Shown: positions 1,915 to 8,220 of the stretch, piece by piece
Numbering within the stretch: position 1 is the stretch's first letter
Layout: the number at the start of each line of letters is the position of its first letter
DNA from: Sulfurimonas sp.
Lineage (GTDB): Bacteria > Campylobacterota > Campylobacteria > Campylobacterales > Sulfurimonadaceae
DNA length: 11,784 nucleotides
Assembly (NCBI GenBank): GCA_002733155.1
Contig: NVUO01000022.1
Coordinates: forward strand, 1,188-12,971
Reading direction: 5' to 3'
Position numbers and translations under genes: made by a program
The notes under the pieces: generated by a model
Databases searched by the model: none
The model's input: only the letters and a program-made list of their open reading frames with translations
Told to the model about the DNA's origin: nothing

Positions 1915-3010
1915 AATTGTTACTAAATAATAAATTATGTATTACTTCCTGAGTCTCTTCATCATATTTATAATAAATTATCTCTTCATTTTCCAGCATT
2001 AAAATAGCTTGTTTTATGACTTTAATCGGAGCGATAAACCACTCTCTAGGAGTGTGATACTCTCCATCATTTCCAACTATTTTTATATTTAAACAGCTAT
2101 TTCCAAAGAACTGATGGAGAAGTTTCTCTAGCTTTTTAGCATTTTTTATTCTCTCTTCTACTGATATACTTGAATAACCTATTTTGTATAGATTTTCTAT
2201 ATTTCTGATTATCTCATCATCACTTTTTGATTTTAAGATATAAATATATCCACTAAGTATGTCATCTTTACTTATCTGATTTAATCCATCTTCTATCTCT
2301 TCATTTAACTGACTCACTATCTTTCCATCTTTATAGAGCTCAGCAGATAAAGAGCGTAGTAACATATCTGATTCAATACCATTTTCAAATATACAGTGAA
2401 GTCTGGCATTACTTTTATTTTTCTCTCTTTTCATTTTACCAATAGATGCTACATATCCAACTACACCTTTTAGGACAAAAAACAAACCCTCTTTTATAAA
2501 ACGCTCACCCCTATAATCTTGTAAAGTTCTTTTTTTCTTTAGTAGGTCGTTATGACAAGATTTAAATAGTTGTTCATAGTTGCCAAAATCTTTACATACT
2601 TTTCTTTTAGCGACATAATCAGGTGTATCTTTTTCTTTGCTTACATGTTTTAAAGTAAAAATATCATCATCCCCACTTAAAAGCCCAAATGGGTCATCGT
2701 TAAAGTCTGTTATGTTATCTATATTTATTTCACTATTTTGAAGTAAATTGAATCTATCAAACTCTCTAAGTATTGCTATTTGATTTGTATCTTCTCTTAT
2801 GCCTTGTAATCTTAGGGCTAAAGTTCTCTCTGGTCGCTGAGCATTTTTGTCTGGTTCTCTCTCATTTTTTTCATAAAACTCTAAAATATTTTGAAAATTC
2901 TCTATTATCATTTTCACTTCATCTCTATGGGTTGATTGTTTAGGTCTCGCGTTTAAAAGTCCAAAAGGGTCATTTTCTAGCTCTTTGTAAAGTTCGGCTT
3001 TTAAGTTCAT
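1907..3010 (-). CDS. GIY-YIG (T5orf172/MUG113-like) nuclease family protein
   Basis: A 367-residue protein with a C-terminal GIY-YIG endonuclease domain: GYIYILKS (254-261) and LYKIGY (274-279) are the two GIY/YIG strands, Arg287 (VEERI) is the likely catalytic Arg, and Glu323 (TPREWF) the likely metal-binding Glu. Before it lies a conserved segment (about 143-235) with GLFFVLKGVVGYV and IFENGIESDMLLRSL, known to me from a helicase-linked subfamily of GIY-YIG proteins. The N-terminus (about 27-72) carries FYEKNEREPDKN...ERTLALRL, related to the C-terminus of the neighbouring helicase. DPFGLL occurs twice (15-20 and 106-111). The ATG overlaps the helicase TGA (ATGA), so the two are translationally coupled. 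The likely role is DNA cleavage with the helicase in restriction or defence. The substrate is unknown. Confidence 0.82.
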   Translation of the reverse strand: MNLKAELYKELENDPFGLLNARPKQSTHRDEVKMIIENFQNILEFYEKNEREPDKNAQRPERTLALRLQGIREDTNQIAILREFDRFNLLQNSEINIDNITDFNDDPFGLLSGDDDIFTLKHVSKEKDTPDYVAKRKVCKDFGNYEQLFKSCHNDLLKKKRTLQDYRGERFIKEGLFFVLKGVVGYVASIGKMKREKNKSNARLHCIFENGIESDMLLRSLSAELYKDGKIVSQLNEEIEDGLNQISKDDILSGYIYILKSKSDDEIIRNIENLYKIGYSSISVEERIKNAKKLEKLLHQFFGNSCLNIKIVGNDGEYHTPREWFIAPIKVIKQAILMLENEEIIYYKYDEETQEVIHNLLFSNNLI

Positions 3011-4929
3011 GAATTCTTCTTTTTGTTGTTGAAGTAGATTGCCCTTGTTAAAACCTCAGCTAGTTTTCTCTCACTTTCATCTGACGAGTTTTTATCTGGT
3101 TTTCTGTTATGTTTTTTATAAAACTCATTTACATCTCTCCAGTAAAAAGTCACTTCTGCTTCACTAAGAGTGCTTTTAGAAGCATCTATACTCTCACTTA
3201 TCAACTTCAAAACTTTCTTATCTAAAGACTTAGAGATAATCTCATAAGCTCTCTGAAAAGGATTAATCTTATCTATGAGGTCTATACTTAAATCATCTAT
3301 GTTTATAAACTTGTTAGTGCCATTTATGAAAACTCTGTTAGTCGCTTCTTCAACTCTCGCATTTGCTAAAACACTATCCACTACGACATGTTGTCGCACC
3401 TCCTCTAACTCCTCCTCACTCAAGTCAGGGTAAGCCTCTTCTATGATTTTAGGGATTAACAACTTGTTTACAACTTCTGGAGTTATCTCAGTTCCTAAGG
3501 TTTTCTCTACCGCTGAATTTGAAAGTATCTTAGCTTTTAGGTCGATTAAATCTTGTTCAACTATATCTTTTACTCTCGCAGTTGATGGTGTTTTAAGTCC
3601 ATTTATCTTAAACTCTCCAGCTTTGTGTGGCGTTTCATCCTCTGGAAGTTTTGTTTTAAACTTAAAGCTTGGTGCTAAAACTTGCTCCATCAAAAGAGAT
3701 GCTGTTATAGCTTTTAGCATATCGTTAGTGGCGTTTGCTACACTTGATTCACTTGCATCGGGTTGTGATATGAGGTTTATAAACTGTGCATGAGATTTGT
3801 TTTTACTATCTCTTGTTGTTCGCCCTATTATCTGTATGACTTCCGTGAGTGATGCACGATACCCAACAGTCAATGCCACTTCACAAAAAGGCCAGTCAAA
3901 GCCCTCTTTTGCCATCCCTAACGCTATGATGATGTCCATATCATCAGCACTTTGTATCTCTCTTAGATATTTTTGGATTTTTGGTCTATCAAATGGGTCA
4001 TCATTTACCAAGTCGGCAACTTTTAAAATTCGCCCATCTTTAGTTTTTACTTTTATCACTCCTGTTTCTTTATCTTCATCTACAAACTCACCAAGAACAT
4101 CTAATATAAACCCGACTTCTCCATGTTTATCTTTTGTTGATTCTCTTGAGTTTACATGTGGAATGTGAATGATGGTTTTTTTACTACTATCGAGAACTTC
4201 ATCTATAGCCTCTGTATATCTACCCTGATAGAAGTGATACCCTATGCCTAAAGATTTTAAGTACTCATAACCATTTAACTGTTCATAGTAGTTATAGGTC
4301 ACTTTTGTAAAAAGCTCTTCAACCTCAGGAAGTAAGATAGGATGGCTATCTCCTCTAAAATACGACCCAGTCATAGCCATAATGTGAGCAGATGATTTTG
4401 CCATGATGGATTTTAGAACACTACCCAAAACACTTGCATCACTAGCACTTAAGTGATGAAACTCATCTATAGCTAAAAGAGTGTTGTCAAATCTACTCTC
4501 ACTAAGTGTTTCAAACGCTGTTCTTAGCGTTGAGTGTGTACAGATAAGAACCTCTTCATCACCAAGCAAAAACTCTTTAAACGCCTCACTTTTGCTTTGG
4601 TTTGACTCAATCGTGCAAAGATTAAACTCAGGATTAACAACCCAATCAGCCTCAAAACCAAAAGATGTCAAATCAGCATCACCAAACGACCCACCAATGC
4701 TTTTTTCAGGAACAGCAACTATAACTTTTTTGATATTTTGATGCAAAAGTTTATCTAACGATACAAACATCAAAGCGCGAGATTTTCCAGATGCAGGTGG
4801 TGCTTTGAGCAAGATATACTGTTCATCTCTTACAGCATAAACTCTCTGTTGCATCTCTCTCATACCTAAATTGTTTAGGTTTTTGCTCTTACCTGTTTGT
4901 TGGTAGTTCATGTTTATTAGGTTTTGCAT
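3007..4929 (-). CDS. SF2 DEAD/DEAH-family helicase, island component
   Basis: A 640-residue SF2 helicase/translocase. Visible motifs: Walker A PPASGKS (44-50), motif Ia-like VIVAVPEKSIG (69-79), ICTHSTLR (129-136), motif II DEFHH (155-159), motif III TGS (187-189), motif V MAKEGFDWP (339-347), and motif VI QIIGRTTR (366-373). The C-terminal third is helical and ends in NEFYKKHNRKPDKN...ERKLAEVL (601-627), a module also found at the N-terminus of the downstream nuclease. The start is supported by AAGGA just upstream of the ATG; the next in-frame Met (residue 7) has no such site. No methylase or nuclease domain is present, so it probably works as the motor for the GIY-YIG protein. Its own promoter is unclear; the sequence upstream on this strand is weak. 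Confidence 0.88.
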   Translation of the reverse strand: MQNLINMNYQQTGKSKNLNNLGMREMQQRVYAVRDEQYILLKAPPASGKSRALMFVSLDKLLHQNIKKVIVAVPEKSIGGSFGDADLTSFGFEADWVVNPEFNLCTIESNQSKSEAFKEFLLGDEEVLICTHSTLRTAFETLSESRFDNTLLAIDEFHHLSASDASVLGSVLKSIMAKSSAHIMAMTGSYFRGDSHPILLPEVEELFTKVTYNYYEQLNGYEYLKSLGIGYHFYQGRYTEAIDEVLDSSKKTIIHIPHVNSRESTKDKHGEVGFILDVLGEFVDEDKETGVIKVKTKDGRILKVADLVNDDPFDRPKIQKYLREIQSADDMDIIIALGMAKEGFDWPFCEVALTVGYRASLTEVIQIIGRTTRDSKNKSHAQFINLISQPDASESSVANATNDMLKAITASLLMEQVLAPSFKFKTKLPEDETPHKAGEFKINGLKTPSTARVKDIVEQDLIDLKAKILSNSAVEKTLGTEITPEVVNKLLIPKIIEEAYPDLSEEELEEVRQHVVVDSVLANARVEEATNRVFINGTNKFINIDDLSIDLIDKINPFQRAYEIISKSLDKKVLKLISESIDASKSTLSEAEVTFYWRDVNEFYKKHNRKPDKNSSDESERKLAEVLTRAIYFNNKKKNS

Positions 4930-4952
4930 TTTGTTCCTTTTTTTGCTATAAT
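4924..4952 (+). promoter_or_regulatory. Plus-strand promoter with extended -10
   Basis: TTGCAT (4924-4929), a 17-base spacer, then TATAAT (4947-4952) preceded by TG one base away (TGCTATAAT). This is the best sigma70-type promoter in the window. It points away from the helicase and overlaps its first two codons. Transcription would begin near 4959 and enter the structured intergenic region. Confidence 0.6.
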
Positions 4953-4958
4953 CTTCTC

Positions 4959-5041
4959 TGTTGTAAGTACTTATTAGTGTTCTATGGAGCGATAATAAAT
5001 TTTAAGGTTAGGGGATTAATTACCTCCTAACCTTTTTTTTT
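4959..5041 (+). ncRNA. Candidate small RNA complementary to the downstream leader
   Basis: Predicted from a strong promoter (extended -10 at 4947-4952) and a strong intrinsic terminator (ending 5041), giving an RNA of about 80 bases with no convincing ORF. Its bases 4970-4989 can pair with 5045-5063 over 19 base pairs (18 Watson-Crick, one G-U) with A4984 bulged. The target covers the leader of the small ORF at 5073 and the first part of its Shine-Dalgarno. An adjacent sRNA with a run of about 20 complementary bases is how ZorO/OrzO and similar type I antitoxins work. The same pairing could also form in cis in a read-through transcript. The exact 5' end is inferred. Confidence 0.42.
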
Positions 5042-5063
5042 GTCCTCCAAGAATACTAATAAG
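4970..5063. repeat. Long imperfect inverted repeat, arms 4970-4989 and 5045-5063
   Basis: Left arm 4970-4989 (CTTATTAGTGTTCTATGGAG) pairs with right arm 5045-5063 (CTCCAAGAATACTAATAAG). The match is 19 pairs with one bulged A (4984) and one G-U (4979-5054). The 55-base interior contains the intrinsic terminator hairpin. It is either an sRNA-target pairing, a cis translation-blocking stem, or the ends of a tiny non-autonomous mobile element. No target duplication is visible. Confidence 0.8.
5004..5041 (+). terminator. Strong intrinsic terminator
   Basis: Perfect 9-bp stem AAGGTTAGG (5004-5012) with CCTAACCTT (5026-5034), followed directly by a run of nine T on the plus strand (5033-5041, the first two in the stem). 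On the minus strand the hairpin is followed by AAAATTTATT, so it does not look like a terminator in that direction. It would end transcripts from the promoter at 4947-4952. Confidence 0.8.
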
Positions 5064-5072
5064 GGAGATTTT

Positions 5073-5132
5073 ATGAATAAGATGCTTACAACACTGTTTC
5101 TTATGTGCATTTTCGCACCTATGCTAAATTAG
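5073..5132 (+). CDS. Candidate 19-aa hydrophobic peptide (type I toxin-like)
   Basis: A short ORF reading MNKMLTTLFLMCIFAPMLN, then TAG. It has an excellent ribosome binding site, AAGGGAG (5061-5067), 5 bases before the ATG. The peptide is a basic start followed by one hydrophobic stretch, similar in size and character to Ibs-type toxins (18-19 residues) and other type I toxins; there is no sequence homology I can claim. The SD is caught in two alternative pairings: upstream 4970-4989 with 5045-5063, and downstream TCTCCCT (5159-5165) with AGGGAGA (5062-5068). The last codons form part of a 19-base palindrome. It could also be a leader peptide or a chance ORF. The ORF length is unremarkable alone; the RBS and RNA structures are what argue for it. 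Confidence 0.42.
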   Translation: MNKMLTTLFLMCIFAPMLN

Positions 5133-5158
5133 CATAGTCAAGGGATTTGTTTCCCTTG
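5105..5158 (+). terminator. Three consecutive hairpins, last one a possible weak terminator
   Basis: GTGC/GCAC hairpin (5105-5108 with 5115-5118); a 19-base palindrome CTATGCTAAATTAGCATAG (5119-5137, 9-bp arms around one A); then CAAGGGA (5139-5145) with TCCCTTG (5152-5158), a 7-bp stem. The last is followed by TCTCCCTATTTTCTT, a poor T tract. The cluster lies between the small ORF and the convergent 134-aa gene and may stop transcription from both sides. Confidence 0.45.
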
Positions 5159-5185
5159 TCTCCCTATTTTCTTAATAGTTCAAAA

Positions 5186-5590
5186 TCACCAAAACTTTAA
5201 AAATCCTAATATTTTCGGAAATAAATTGTCTTTTTTAACTGTTTTTATACTAATATTATTTCCAGCAATACTTACATCCCCATTTGCTCCATTTATATAA
5301 GCTGTAATTTGAGTTGGTTTTGAAAATTTTTCCATAGTCCTTCTATTATGTTCTTGTATATCCCTATTCATTTGTTCATGTTTCATTATCGACTCCATAT
5401 CTATAGTTGCCTCTTTTGGTTTTATATCATCTGTAATATATGCTTTTTCATCTTCTATCTTTTTCATTTCTGAATGATAATTATCAGACATCTTTTGAAT
5501 ATCTGTTCTCTCTTCTTTAGGATAAGTCTTTTTATAAAATTTCTCTATTTTTTTAAACTTTTTTGCTATTTTCTTCTTTTCATCTTTCAT
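5186..5590 (-). CDS. 134-aa protein of unknown function coupled to the methyltransferase
   Basis: I do not recognise a family. The N-terminal half is very Lys/Glu-rich and probably helical or coiled coil (residues 1-90). It is followed by a short Gly/Asn-rich beta-like segment, TAYINGANGDVSIAGNNISI (96-115), and an amphipathic, aromatic C-terminal tail LFPKILGFLKFW (123-134) that could sit on a membrane or bind a partner. Segments like GDVSIAGNNI recur in small proteins and linkers of bacterial conflict systems, but that similarity is only an impression. The ATG overlaps the methyltransferase stop (ATGA) and AAGGAGG lies upstream, so it is made together with the methyltransferase. The DNA is AT-rich (about 23-28% GC on two counted lines). 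An accessory or immunity role is possible but unproven. Confidence 0.7.
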   Translation of the reverse strand: MKDEKKKIAKKFKKIEKFYKKTYPKEERTDIQKMSDNYHSEMKKIEDEKAYITDDIKPKEATIDMESIMKHEQMNRDIQEHNRRTMEKFSKPTQITAYINGANGDVSIAGNNISIKTVKKDNLFPKILGFLKFW

Positions 5591-8220
5591 AACTTTTTCT
5601 CCTCCTTAACCATCTTCTCATACAACCGAAAAAGATACTCTAGTCTCTCTTCGTCGTTTTGAAATGGCTTCTCTCTGTAGCATTTTTCTATGTAAAGGTC
5701 TAAGTTGTGGTGGGCTTGTTTTAGTCCTTTTGGCATTTTGTTTGGGTCGTAAAGTTCTGCCATGGTTTTTGGGAAGTTTTTATCTCTTTCGTCTAAGATT
5801 AGGTGTACTAACTCTTCTATCTTAACTTTTTGTATTTGTGTTATTTTTGGGAATGGGAAGGTGTTGTAACATAGCACAGAAGAGTAGCGATAGTCAGATT
5901 TTAGTTTTCCTCCAACAGTTTTAACCCAAATATTATGAATATATGATGTTATAAAACCAAATATCCATACATCTGCATCGTATATTACCTGTGCCGAATT
6001 TGGAATTATTACATCTTTTTCTAAAAATCCAATAGGGATATATTTTCTTCTTTCTGAAGATACAATTGGAACAATTATTGATGATACTTTTGCTTCATTC
6101 AAATCACGAAATTGATGTGCTCTCAATGCAAGTTTCTGCAAACTTTCATCTTTACTTTTTAATCTATTTTCTTTTACCTTATTAATTCTATCACTAATAT
6201 TTTGTATTTGAGATGCTTCTTCTAAATCTTCATTACTTATCCATAAGCAATACCGTTCTTTTCCTTGAATAAATTCTGCTGAACCACTTAGTTTTCTTAT
6301 AAATTTACTTGCATCTTCATTTTCTGCTAATATATTTTCTTTTTCAAGAGGTGTCAGTAACAGTTCATTACATCCACCTGTATAATTTCCATAAGACATT
6401 TTTGGAATATTTAAAATGGGGCTACTTCTTCTTTCTATATAAATATTTGGAGCATCTAATAAATATCCATTTATAATATTAGTTTCAAATACTATTCCAT
6501 TTTTATATAACTTTTTTTTGAATTTATTTTTATTAGCAATACCAACTATTACAACAATAACACCTGCATTATTTTTGGCATTATTTGACCATTTAAAAGA
6601 TTGATATGCAAAATTTATTTCTACATCTTCGTTAAACACATTTGACCACAATGTAGCAACTTGATCACCTTGTGTTATAGAATTTGTACTCACAAAAGCA
6701 TATCTTGAATTAATACCTTTTATATATTTTGCTCCTAAATAAAACCAACAAGCTATATAATCTAGAGTTTTATAATTTTTGACACCTTTAAAAAGATACT
6801 CCATATCTTCTTTATGTTCTTTTACTTGATTACGAGTGCCAATATAAGGAGGATTTCCCAAAACGTATATCTCATCCCCATCCTCTTTAGGACAAACCTC
6901 GTTCCACTCTAGTCTTGTGGCATTTCCTTGAATTATGTTTCCTCCATCTTTAAGTGGCAGAGTTGGGGTACAGTCTCCGAACTCTTTTTTAAACTCCATA
7001 TTCATCTGATGTTCTGTTAGCCATAGTGAGAGTATGGCTACTTCATGGGCGAAGTCGTCTAGTTCTATGCCGTAAAATTGGCTTAGTTTTATGCTTGGCA
7101 TATTTAACATTCCCGCACTTTTAAAGATTTTCATCTCTAGTCGGCGTAACTCTTTGTAGGCGATGATGAGAAAGTTTCCACTTCCACAGGCTGGGTCGAA
7201 GATTTTTATGTTTGTTATGCGTTTGTGAAGTTCGTTTAACTTTTTTGGATTTGTTTTAGCTTTTTCAAATTCTGCTTGTAGCTCTTCTAAAAAGAGAGGG
7301 TTTATAACTTTCATGATGTTTGGAACAGATGTGTAGTGCATCCCATTGCCACCACGATGCTCATCACTTATGACGGCTTGTATCATACTACCAAAAATAT
7401 CAGGATTTATCTGCGACCAGTTGAGCTCTCCTCCACACTCTATGAGAAGTTTTCTTGACTTGTATGTGAGCTTGGGTATGTTTAGTTTCTGAGCAAAAAG
7501 TCCACCATTTACATAAGGGAAATTTTTTAGATGGTGCGATATGTCTCTATTTTTGGAGTTTAAAACCTCAAAAAGTTTGGCTATGTGAATATCTACATCA
7601 CTTCCATCTGCGTTTGTAGTAGAACTTATGTAAGTTGTAAATGTGTTCTCACCCTCAAAGATTTGGGTGTCTTCCGCGTAGTAACAAAAGAGTAGTCTTG
7701 TAAGAAAAACATTCAAAGCATGAATATCTTCTTGTGTCTCAATGGTGTTTGTCTTTTTTATCTCATCAAAAAGTTTTGCCATCTTTAGAGATGCTTTTAC
7801 ATCTGCTTCTTTTTCATCATAAACAGTTGCTTTTTCCACACCAGCTATACCCCAAAAAAAGTCTGAGTTTTTCGAAAGTTCTTCTAGTGGAATCTTGAGA
7901 GTTATTAAAAGCTTACTATCAAACGCCATAAGCGTTTTAAAGTCTGTCACCAAGACAAAACGCATAGTTTTTTTACTCGTAACTAACTCTTCATATATGG
8001 CGTTTAGATTTTGGCTCTCTACACTCTTAAAAAATAGCTTCTTATTTTTCACAGTGAGTTCACCATTTAACTCTAAGGTATTGACATCACTATTTTTTCT
8101 AAGCCTACTAATATTTGACTTTGGCATCTCATAAGCAGATAAAAAATCAAAGATAAAATCATCTTTTACTAAATTATCTGTTAAGTTTTGTAATTTTTGT
8201 TCTAATTGTAAGATGTTCAT
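5587..8220 (-). CDS. MmeI-like class I SAM-dependent adenine DNA methyltransferase, nuclease motif degenerate
   Basis: An 877-residue protein with the MmeI-family order: N-terminal domain (1-150), helical spacer (about 155-300), N6-adenine methyltransferase domain with motif I FDPACGSGNF (341-350) and motif IV LGNPPY (454-459), target recognition domain (about 600-780, FIRKLSGSAEFIQGKERYCLWI), and C-terminal domain with TMAELYDPNKMP..L..AHHNLD (819-841) and RLEYLFRLYEKM. Active MmeI enzymes cut with a D...ExK motif in the N-terminal domain. Here the aligned stretch is KLFFKS (61-66): Lys65 is kept but Phe63 stands in place of the acid, so the protein is probably a methyltransferase without cleavage activity. 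The SD is weak. Sequence from about residue 460 to 780 is far more AT-rich than both flanks, suggesting exchange of the recognition part. It shares an operon with the 134-aa gene. Confidence 0.88.
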   Translation of the reverse strand: MNILQLEQKLQNLTDNLVKDDFIFDFLSAYEMPKSNISRLRKNSDVNTLELNGELTVKNKKLFFKSVESQNLNAIYEELVTSKKTMRFVLVTDFKTLMAFDSKLLITLKIPLEELSKNSDFFWGIAGVEKATVYDEKEADVKASLKMAKLFDEIKKTNTIETQEDIHALNVFLTRLLFCYYAEDTQIFEGENTFTTYISSTTNADGSDVDIHIAKLFEVLNSKNRDISHHLKNFPYVNGGLFAQKLNIPKLTYKSRKLLIECGGELNWSQINPDIFGSMIQAVISDEHRGGNGMHYTSVPNIMKVINPLFLEELQAEFEKAKTNPKKLNELHKRITNIKIFDPACGSGNFLIIAYKELRRLEMKIFKSAGMLNMPSIKLSQFYGIELDDFAHEVAILSLWLTEHQMNMEFKKEFGDCTPTLPLKDGGNIIQGNATRLEWNEVCPKEDGDEIYVLGNPPYIGTRNQVKEHKEDMEYLFKGVKNYKTLDYIACWFYLGAKYIKGINSRYAFVSTNSITQGDQVATLWSNVFNEDVEINFAYQSFKWSNNAKNNAGVIVVIVGIANKNKFKKKLYKNGIVFETNIINGYLLDAPNIYIERRSSPILNIPKMSYGNYTGGCNELLLTPLEKENILAENEDASKFIRKLSGSAEFIQGKERYCLWISNEDLEEASQIQNISDRINKVKENRLKSKDESLQKLALRAHQFRDLNEAKVSSIIVPIVSSERRKYIPIGFLEKDVIIPNSAQVIYDADVWIFGFITSYIHNIWVKTVGGKLKSDYRYSSVLCYNTFPFPKITQIQKVKIEELVHLILDERDKNFPKTMAELYDPNKMPKGLKQAHHNLDLYIEKCYREKPFQNDEERLEYLFRLYEKMVKEEKKL

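Follow-up and report, generated by a model that had tools for sequence, protein, structure and literature searches.

Known toxin-antitoxin systems and the Sulfurimonas element

The AapA/IsoA toxin-antitoxin systems belong to Helicobacter pylori, a member of the same bacterial order as the host of the element described here. This element of about 210 bp lies in an 11,784-nt stretch of DNA from the sulfur-oxidising bacterium Sulfurimonas sp. (assembly GCA_002733155.1, contig NVUO01000022.1, positions 1,188 to 12,971 of the forward strand), denoted as the window in the following. It consists of a promoter, an RNA of ~84 nt with a terminator, a 19-codon hydrophobic open reading frame (ORF), and a structured 3' end. 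The original prediction, made from the window alone, had placed a candidate type I toxin-antitoxin locus at positions 4924..5165, and the unit is confirmed there. We consider it rather probable that the element is a type I-like toxin-antitoxin module in a type III-like order, in which the toxin transcript itself supplies the antitoxin as its terminated leader. Going beyond the original prediction, a pairing between the 5' end of the RNA and the ORF, a pairing between the Shine-Dalgarno (SD) sequence and the 3' end, and the recurrence of the element in relatives were found.

For aapA3, a full-length mRNA of 225 nt is described, in which an interaction of the 5' and 3' ends hides the SD and which is activated by 3' truncation; the antisense RNA of 80 nt is reported to be module-specific, RNAs of five other loci not serving in its place, and the AapA3 peptide comprises ~30 amino acids (aa) (PMC6733600). 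Ibs is characterized as a 19-aa hydrophobic inner-membrane peptide from a multicopy locus, and Sib as an RNA with two recognition domains, one for the coding sequence and one for the initiation site (PMC4147584, PMC7192591). The pairing of OrzO with its toxin leader is given as limited, 18 nt (PMC3919570). In par of pAD1 (Fst), pairing is described to begin at the terminator loops and to spread to two short segments, hiding the start codon (PMC8309996). The orders of the antitoxin named for type I systems are opposite, convergent, or divergent to the toxin, while in ToxIN the RNA, an intrinsic terminator, and the toxin stand in tandem and are co-transcribed, with few transcripts reading through and the RNA exceeding the toxin mRNA (PMC4147584).

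Two features of the type I class are borne out computationally in the element: an RNA complementary to the toxin mRNA, with covarying pairing, and a small hydrophobic protein under coding constraint. A third, a separate antitoxin gene with its own conserved promoter, was not found, RNA and ORF being arranged in tandem on the same strand, as the original prediction had observed; its comparison with ZorO/OrzO or Ibs/Sib holds for the logic and fails for the gene order. With AapA/IsoA, the element shares a full-length mRNA closed by an SD:3'-end interaction (here based on prediction and covariation), but its antisense RNA is located upstream on the same strand, and its peptide has 19 aa instead of ~30 aa. 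A sequence scan of 61 copies for an AapA/IsoA-style antisense RNA on the opposite strand found no position-conserved -10 box there. Ibs/Sib resembles the element in the 19-aa hydrophobic peptide, the two recognition segments, and the multicopy occurrence, but Sib is described to overlap the whole ibs coding region and the ribosome binding site, and the element lacks an Rfam match: none of this kind was obtained up to E 5, and over the element only a plant miRNA hairpin model was hit (19.3 bits against a cut-off of 73). A limited RNA-leader pairing is common to ZorO/OrzO, TisB/IstR, ShoB/OhsC, and DinQ/AgrB, but these loci are presented as divergent, with RNAs that spare the start region and the coding sequence (PMC4147584). 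The tandem of RNA gene, terminator, and toxin gene recalls ToxIN, in which, however, the ToxI repeats are described to inhibit the ToxN endoribonuclease protein (PMC8860590), whereas the element combines an antisense RNA with a 19-aa peptide. Two segments and a shared terminator loop are also found in par of pAD1, whose RNA I and RNA II are, in contrast, convergent with a common terminator (PMC4147584). Altogether, the module would work like a type I system; it departs from AapA/IsoA, Ibs/Sib, and ZorO/OrzO in features of order or size and from ToxIN in protein features. Membership in a known Rfam RNA family or a Pfam/NCBIfam toxin family was rejected, as the library scans gave no such match; for Pfam/NCBIfam, a 30-aa reading-frame proxy and two 20-aa relatives were scanned, 19 aa being too short.

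Among the open-licence papers listed, judged by their titles and the starts of their abstracts, no description of the element was found, nor was any open-licence paper found that joins 'type I toxin-antitoxin' and 'Sulfurimonas'. If the proposal is true, type I chemistry (antisense RNA versus membrane peptide) and type III order are united in one single-promoter unit of ~210 bp, one transcription unit yields toxin and antitoxin through termination alone, and Sulfurimonas gains a candidate toxin family.

Copy-specific antisense pairing

All parts of the element named here lie on the + strand. The predicted terminated leader RNA, the putative antitoxin of ~84 nt, extends over positions 4958..5041, its start being placed from the -10 box. 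Its 5' end (segment a, 4959..4969) is antisense to codons 4-7 of the ORF and can form 11 bp with segment a' (5083..5093). The 5' arm that follows (segment b, 4970..4989) is antisense to the toxin leader, of which segments c' and b' (5040..5063) are complementary to the RNA. In the window, positions 4970-4983 and 4985-4989 pair with 5045-5063, giving 19 bp with one bulged A; the helix extends to the SD and includes its first G, and its energy of -24.9 kcal/mol corresponds to z -7.8 when the arms are shuffled. This is exactly the 19-bp, single-bulge pairing into the SD that the original prediction had described and had judged unlikely by chance, a judgement sustained by the comparison of own and swapped arms across 61 copies. 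Segments a' and b' flank the SD and the start codon, and the duplex would leave these two as a loop.

Within the genus, 66 copies score at least 45, and the 61 with an ORF of exactly 19 codons were used for the pairing, coding, and promoter counts; the 19-codon length is not an independent result in this set, because ORF length was the entry criterion. Five genus copies were left out, namely L017 (frameshift) and L036, L055, L066, and L074 (truncated or interrupted), as were four copies from the sister genus with 19-codon ORFs (L093, L095, L110, L111). Copies come from many draft, incomplete genomes.

When the arms of these 61 intact copies are exchanged, arm b:b' has a mean energy of -21.3 kcal/mol with its own leader versus -10.2 kcal/mol with swapped leaders, in a comparison that, like the loop palindrome test below, ignores the shared ancestry of the copies; for 44 of the 61 arms the own leader ranks first, and for 57 it is in the top five. 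For segment a, taken as the first ~11 nt of the RNA, which pair around codons 4-8 and were tested against ORF codons 4-11, the means are -13.6 (own) and -5.1 kcal/mol (swapped), with 0 of 20,000 permutations reaching the observed mean, and the own target is first in 49/61 and in the top five in 60/61. Two of the twelve copies not ranking their own target first (L032 and L056) form weak duplexes (-4.9 and -5.0), and their script-chosen -10 box is doubtful. For nine copies selected from families f4 and f9, the own arm ranks first in every case (-37.6 versus -15.8 kcal/mol) and the own 5' end in seven (-16.0 versus -7.6 kcal/mol). For this set, L104 and L115 (no ATG start) were left out and L113 (ATA) was admitted; L100 and L101 have 20 codons. 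RNAalifold on seven f4 copies finds both helices unaided. The pairing is private to each copy, and the check in relatives named in the original prediction comes out positively, both arms covarying with their own targets.

With some 60 natural copies, each having its private code, antisense specificity, the evolution of such units through inverted duplication, and the insulation of copies can be put to a direct test. A contig of Sulfurimonas indica NW8N (L163) carries two different copies ~90 nt apart in the same orientation (L020, 284-507 and 595-814), a pair that constitutes a natural test of the private pairing codes.

Covariation and the predicted closure of the Shine-Dalgarno sequence

In an alignment of 55 of the 61 copies (A3), 12 of 31 consensus pairs show compensatory changes, including the pairing of the SD (GGGAG, 5063..5067) with the 3' end (GC 28, AU 25 of 55). 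Segment c (GAUAA, 4991..4995), which pairs with 5040-5044, is supported by compensatory changes in relatives as well (columns 32-89: GC 38, AU 15, GU 2 of 55). Further covariation concerns stems within the ORF (AUAAGA:UCUUAU and GUGC:GCAC, 5077..5118), with UA 47 and AU 7 at columns 127-152, CG 33 and AU 12 at 131-148, and CG 46 and UA 4 at 157-164 of the 55. Glu at codon 2 is accompanied by Leu at codon 11 in 8 of 9 copies (A3 columns 127 and 152), a coupling that may arise because the RNA stem inside the ORF links both codons.

The fold of the predicted transcript of the element in the window, a check proposed in the original prediction, has -80.5 kcal/mol (z -9.8), and none of 200 shuffles is as good. 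It contains a hairpin across the stop codon (5119..5138) and a 3' hairpin with an anti-SD UCUCCCU (5139..5165), the latter at 5159-5165 pairing with 5062-5068 around the SD. A helix of at least 6 Watson-Crick pairs joins SD and tail in 51/61 copies; with shuffled tails, the figure is 15%. The types of SD and anti-SD agree in 46/61 (GGGAG/CTCCC 25, GGGGG/CCCCC 21), with one crossed combination and 14 of other types. According to the predicted folds, both the full-length RNA and a 5'-cut RNA keeping its 3' end have a closed SD, which opens in part once the 3' end is trimmed. The terminated RNA, whose 5' end is predicted to be unpaired, would pair with the 3'-trimmed message via both segments and with the untrimmed message via the arm only.

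Coding constraint and putative toxicity of the peptide

The ORF (5073..5132) encodes the putative membrane toxin MNKMLTTLFLMCIFAPMLN; as stated in the original prediction, it is a 19-aa hydrophobic product preceded by an SD. Of the single-base codon differences across the 61 copies, a share of 0.478 is synonymous in the ORF frame versus 0.231 expected; the other two frames give 0.224 versus 0.188 and 0.025 versus 0.225. Summed entropy is lowest at second codon positions (4.2 bits; the others 16.3 and 17.4). All three stop codons are used (TAA 29, TAG 24, TGA 8), and the most variable codons are 4-9, around the RNA target, and 19. The nine f4/f9 copies diverge in nucleotides and still encode hydrophobic peptides of 19 or 20 residues; in one copy, the start is ATA. 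The ORF is coding.

A coding ORF is also what would be expected of a regulated small membrane peptide without toxic function, e.g. one for stress or the envelope, that is silenced by the same RNA design. The constraint is demonstrated and the toxicity inferred, and the copies adjoin largely housekeeping genes among the matches listed, both of which suit such a peptide; several silencing layers, one matched antisense per copy, and a patchy multicopy occurrence, in contrast, fit toxins, and the 19-aa hydrophobic product resembles IbsC, described as a 19-aa inner-membrane toxin (PMC7192591, PMC8309996). We regard the non-toxic peptide as improbable.

Terminator, promoter, and proposed mode of action

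A sigma70-type promoter (TTTGCA, 18 nt, TATAAT; 10/12 consensus matches) is situated at 4923..4952 and carries the extended -10 box (TG before TATAAT) of the original prediction; promoter-like sites are no commoner there than in shuffles (5 found versus 7.1). An upstream -10 box with at least 5/6 matches is present in 61/61 intact genus copies, with the extended TG in 26. The terminator of the original prediction is likewise present, with an 11-bp hairpin (5004..5034) and nine T (5033..5041); its 9-nt loop contains the self-complementary AUUAAU. This hairpin is unlisted in the general terminator scan because that scan allows loops of 3-8 nt. The T-run measures exactly nine in all 61 genus copies, nine in seven copies of other families, and seven or eight in four more, and the fixed nine-T homopolymer suggests a tuned terminator. 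In 58/61 copies, related and thus not 58 independent events, the terminator loop contains a palindrome of at least 6 nt, compared with 17% of shuffles. The palindromes are of several unrelated sequences (ATTAAT, TAATTA, TCATGA, TTCGAA); the loops of L099 and L114 (f4) are, by eye, without a self-complementary stretch. Since RNAs with the same hairpin can kiss only through a self-complementary loop, an RNA-RNA contact in trans appears to be favoured.

From the parts, pairings, covariation, coding constraint, and predicted folds computed here, we infer the transcripts, the leakage of the terminator, the processing, the action in trans, and the toxicity as follows. One promoter would give rise to one RNA, and most transcripts would end at the nine-T terminator as the ~84-nt antitoxin RNA, whereas the toxin ORF would be part of the minority that read through. 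In the latter, the leader would refold at once and the SD would pair with the 3' end, rendering them untranslatable from birth; loss of the 3' end together with cleavage of the leader duplex would convert them into active mRNA. Free terminated RNA would capture the processed mRNA in trans, with its unpaired 5' end at codons 4-7 and its arm from the leader to the SD, the start region being looped out and blocked. Should antitoxin no longer be supplied while processed mRNA is still present, the hydrophobic peptide of 19 residues would be made and harm the inner membrane. The chances stand near even that the antitoxin is, in this full form, an attenuated leader built as an inverted duplication of the toxin initiation region (its 5' end matching codons 4-8 and its arm the leader), acting in cis on every full-length and in trans on processed transcripts, with a self-complementary terminator loop where identical hairpins meet and private codes that insulate the paralogues of a genome.

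Several points weigh against the toxin-antitoxin reading. The synonymous excess at codons 5-9 is small (0.342 versus 0.282), toxicity of the peptide is read, as probable, from its length and hydrophobicity by analogy with IbsC, and the element is absent from most genomes of the genus (30 of 135 are found with covariance model R1). Of the units in other families, L104, L115, L113 (ATA), L242, L233, and L251 are without a 19-codon ORF starting with ATG, the last three keeping the leader fold, and segment a of L096 pairs weakly (-5.4). In the predicted full-length fold, the SD:3'-end pairing excludes a:a'. Concerning the promoters, no conserved second one was found on the + strand: from the motif up to 30 nt ahead of the start, a -10-like hexamer occurs in 8/61 copies, among them the window with GATAAT (4991-4996, 5/6). 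The toxin message is therefore most simply a read-through product of the RNA's own terminator. On the - strand, a -10-like hexamer lies at most 130 nt behind the start codon in 37/61 copies; in the window there is TAAAAT over 5068-5073. No opposite-strand -10 box is fixed in position in the 61 copies, the commonest place, the A/T-rich spacer between SD and start, reaching 0.38; single copies, including that of the window, may possess an extra promoter.

The read-through mRNA can, moreover, meet both pairings in cis, and therefore action in trans is not required. For this reason the main rival is a peptide mRNA latched purely in cis, in which the arms act within one transcript, translation is locked by the leader hairpin and the SD:3'-end pairing, the terminator limits read-through, the terminated RNA is a by-product, and release follows a signal, e.g. 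a cut in the long stem by RNase III or the action of a helicase. The lack of a conserved second promoter agrees with it, as does the predicted fold, in which the arm pairs with the leader of the same molecule and, in some copies, the 5' end with the ORF, and the co-transcriptional order would favour pairing in cis. Such a latch has, however, no need of exactly nine T (61/61) or of self-complementary loops (58/61), and the 5' end of the predicted terminated RNA is unpaired, as a seed acting in trans would be. We judge the purely cis-acting latch to be unlikely, while preferring a terminated leader that serves as antitoxin.

Distribution among relatives

The element is single in its own genome according to BLAST, the other 22 matches being short with E 0.5 or worse. 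Within the genus, 36/135 genomes match by BLAST at E 0.01 or better, the weakest of these matches being short and probably due to chance; R1 detects its 30 genomes at E 0.001, with up to six matches per genome (model E-values are rough). The element recurs in Sulfurimonas and in the sister genus Sulfuricurvum. At the level of the order, R1 has matches in 19 of 398 genomes, across 6 of 87 genera, and a second model, R2, matches 21; R2 was built from seven f4 copies and finds the element of the window at E 4e-9. Inspection of the matches, including six of the extra R2 loci, revealed that families f1, f4, and f9 have units built on the same plan, and f19 a unit with the fold and without an ATG start. 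Two f6 matches (L247, L248) without the architecture were set aside. An origin from a plasmid or phage was rejected, no match being present in the plasmid or phage collection.

A scan for the leader-SD-ATG pattern in a collection of named species, free of length selection and accepting any ATG 40-75 nt behind the motif, returned 65 stretches from genomes largely identical to those of the BLAST search. The element is contained in 63 of them, all with a 19-codon ORF and belonging to records named Sulfurimonas, Sulfuricurvum, Helicobacteraceae, Arcobacter, Campylobacterales, or Campylobacterota; L153 and L169, matching the pattern without the element, were set aside.

Among decayed genus copies, the half with promoter, RNA, and terminator is kept and the ORF lost or interrupted in L055 (207-332), L066 (1981-2099), L074 (237-315), and L036 (1500-1611). 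L017 combines its frameshift with a broken T-run, and L103 is a 3' remnant without a start. A weak match in f11 (L246, - strand, ~1500-1670) has a shorter hairpin RNA and, by eye, an apparent 19-aa ORF (MSQILIVIILLCILTVNAY), and is possibly a reduced relative of the element.

Genomic context

The window comprises eno and recA with a restriction-modification island between them, to which a helicase (3007-4929) and a type IIG enzyme (5587-8220) belong; a 367-aa and a 134-aa protein of the island had no match in the two family libraries scanned. On the strand opposite to the two genes that enclose it, the element occupies the gap from the start of the helicase gene to the end of the 134-aa gene. 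From this position within the island, with the helicase on one side and the 134-aa and type IIG genes on the other, an addiction function for the restriction-modification genes could be supposed, and the original prediction had tied cell survival to possession of the defence genes. Homologues of the helicase were located at 17 loci in 16 of the 135 genomes, the own genome included, and only one of these loci, that of the window, bears the element, several of the loci ending at contig ends; the linkage is thus seen in one genome. Elsewhere, among the matches listed, copies adjoin moeA, PTPS, gcpE, and many others, a mixed and largely housekeeping neighbourhood in which defence-gene matches are scattered (117 of 124 flanking ORFs were scanned for families, with up to 25 families per table). 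The tie to the defence genes is not supported, and we consider a role as addiction part of the island highly improbable.

At the junction of PTPS and moeA, analysed in the best 30 of 124 genomes with PTPS, the element is present in 5 of 30 loci, with an interval of 238-293 nt. The 25 loci without it have 0-45 nt in 19 cases and 90, 235, and 511 nt in three, another three being unmeasurable, and gaps bearing the element are ~200 nt longer than in 19 of the 22 measured loci without it. Because of the helicase loci and this presence and absence at PTPS-moeA, gains and losses of the element appear to be independent, without a tie to defence genes. In the 235-nt gap of L206, a different insertion, inverted-repeat-like by eye, is found in the place where five other loci hold the element.

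Multicopy, dispersed occurrence and presence or absence at PTPS-moeA (5/30 loci) would also characterize a dispersed non-functional repeat of the MITE type, whose inverted repeats merely resemble regulation, the case that the original prediction had named as refuting it. Dispersal is indeed observed, but coding constraint, the 19-codon ORF in 63/65 pattern matches (those holding the element), paired changes in each copy, and conserved promoter, SD, and terminator argue against an inert sequence. A plain inert repeat was rejected on the coding constraint and the 19-codon ORFs of the 63 stretches, and a MITE-like nature in general is hardly credible.

In the window, the element (here 4930-5186) is antisense to the presumed restriction-modification operon, and an operon transcript crossing the gap would, in this one genome, represent a full antisense of the toxin message.

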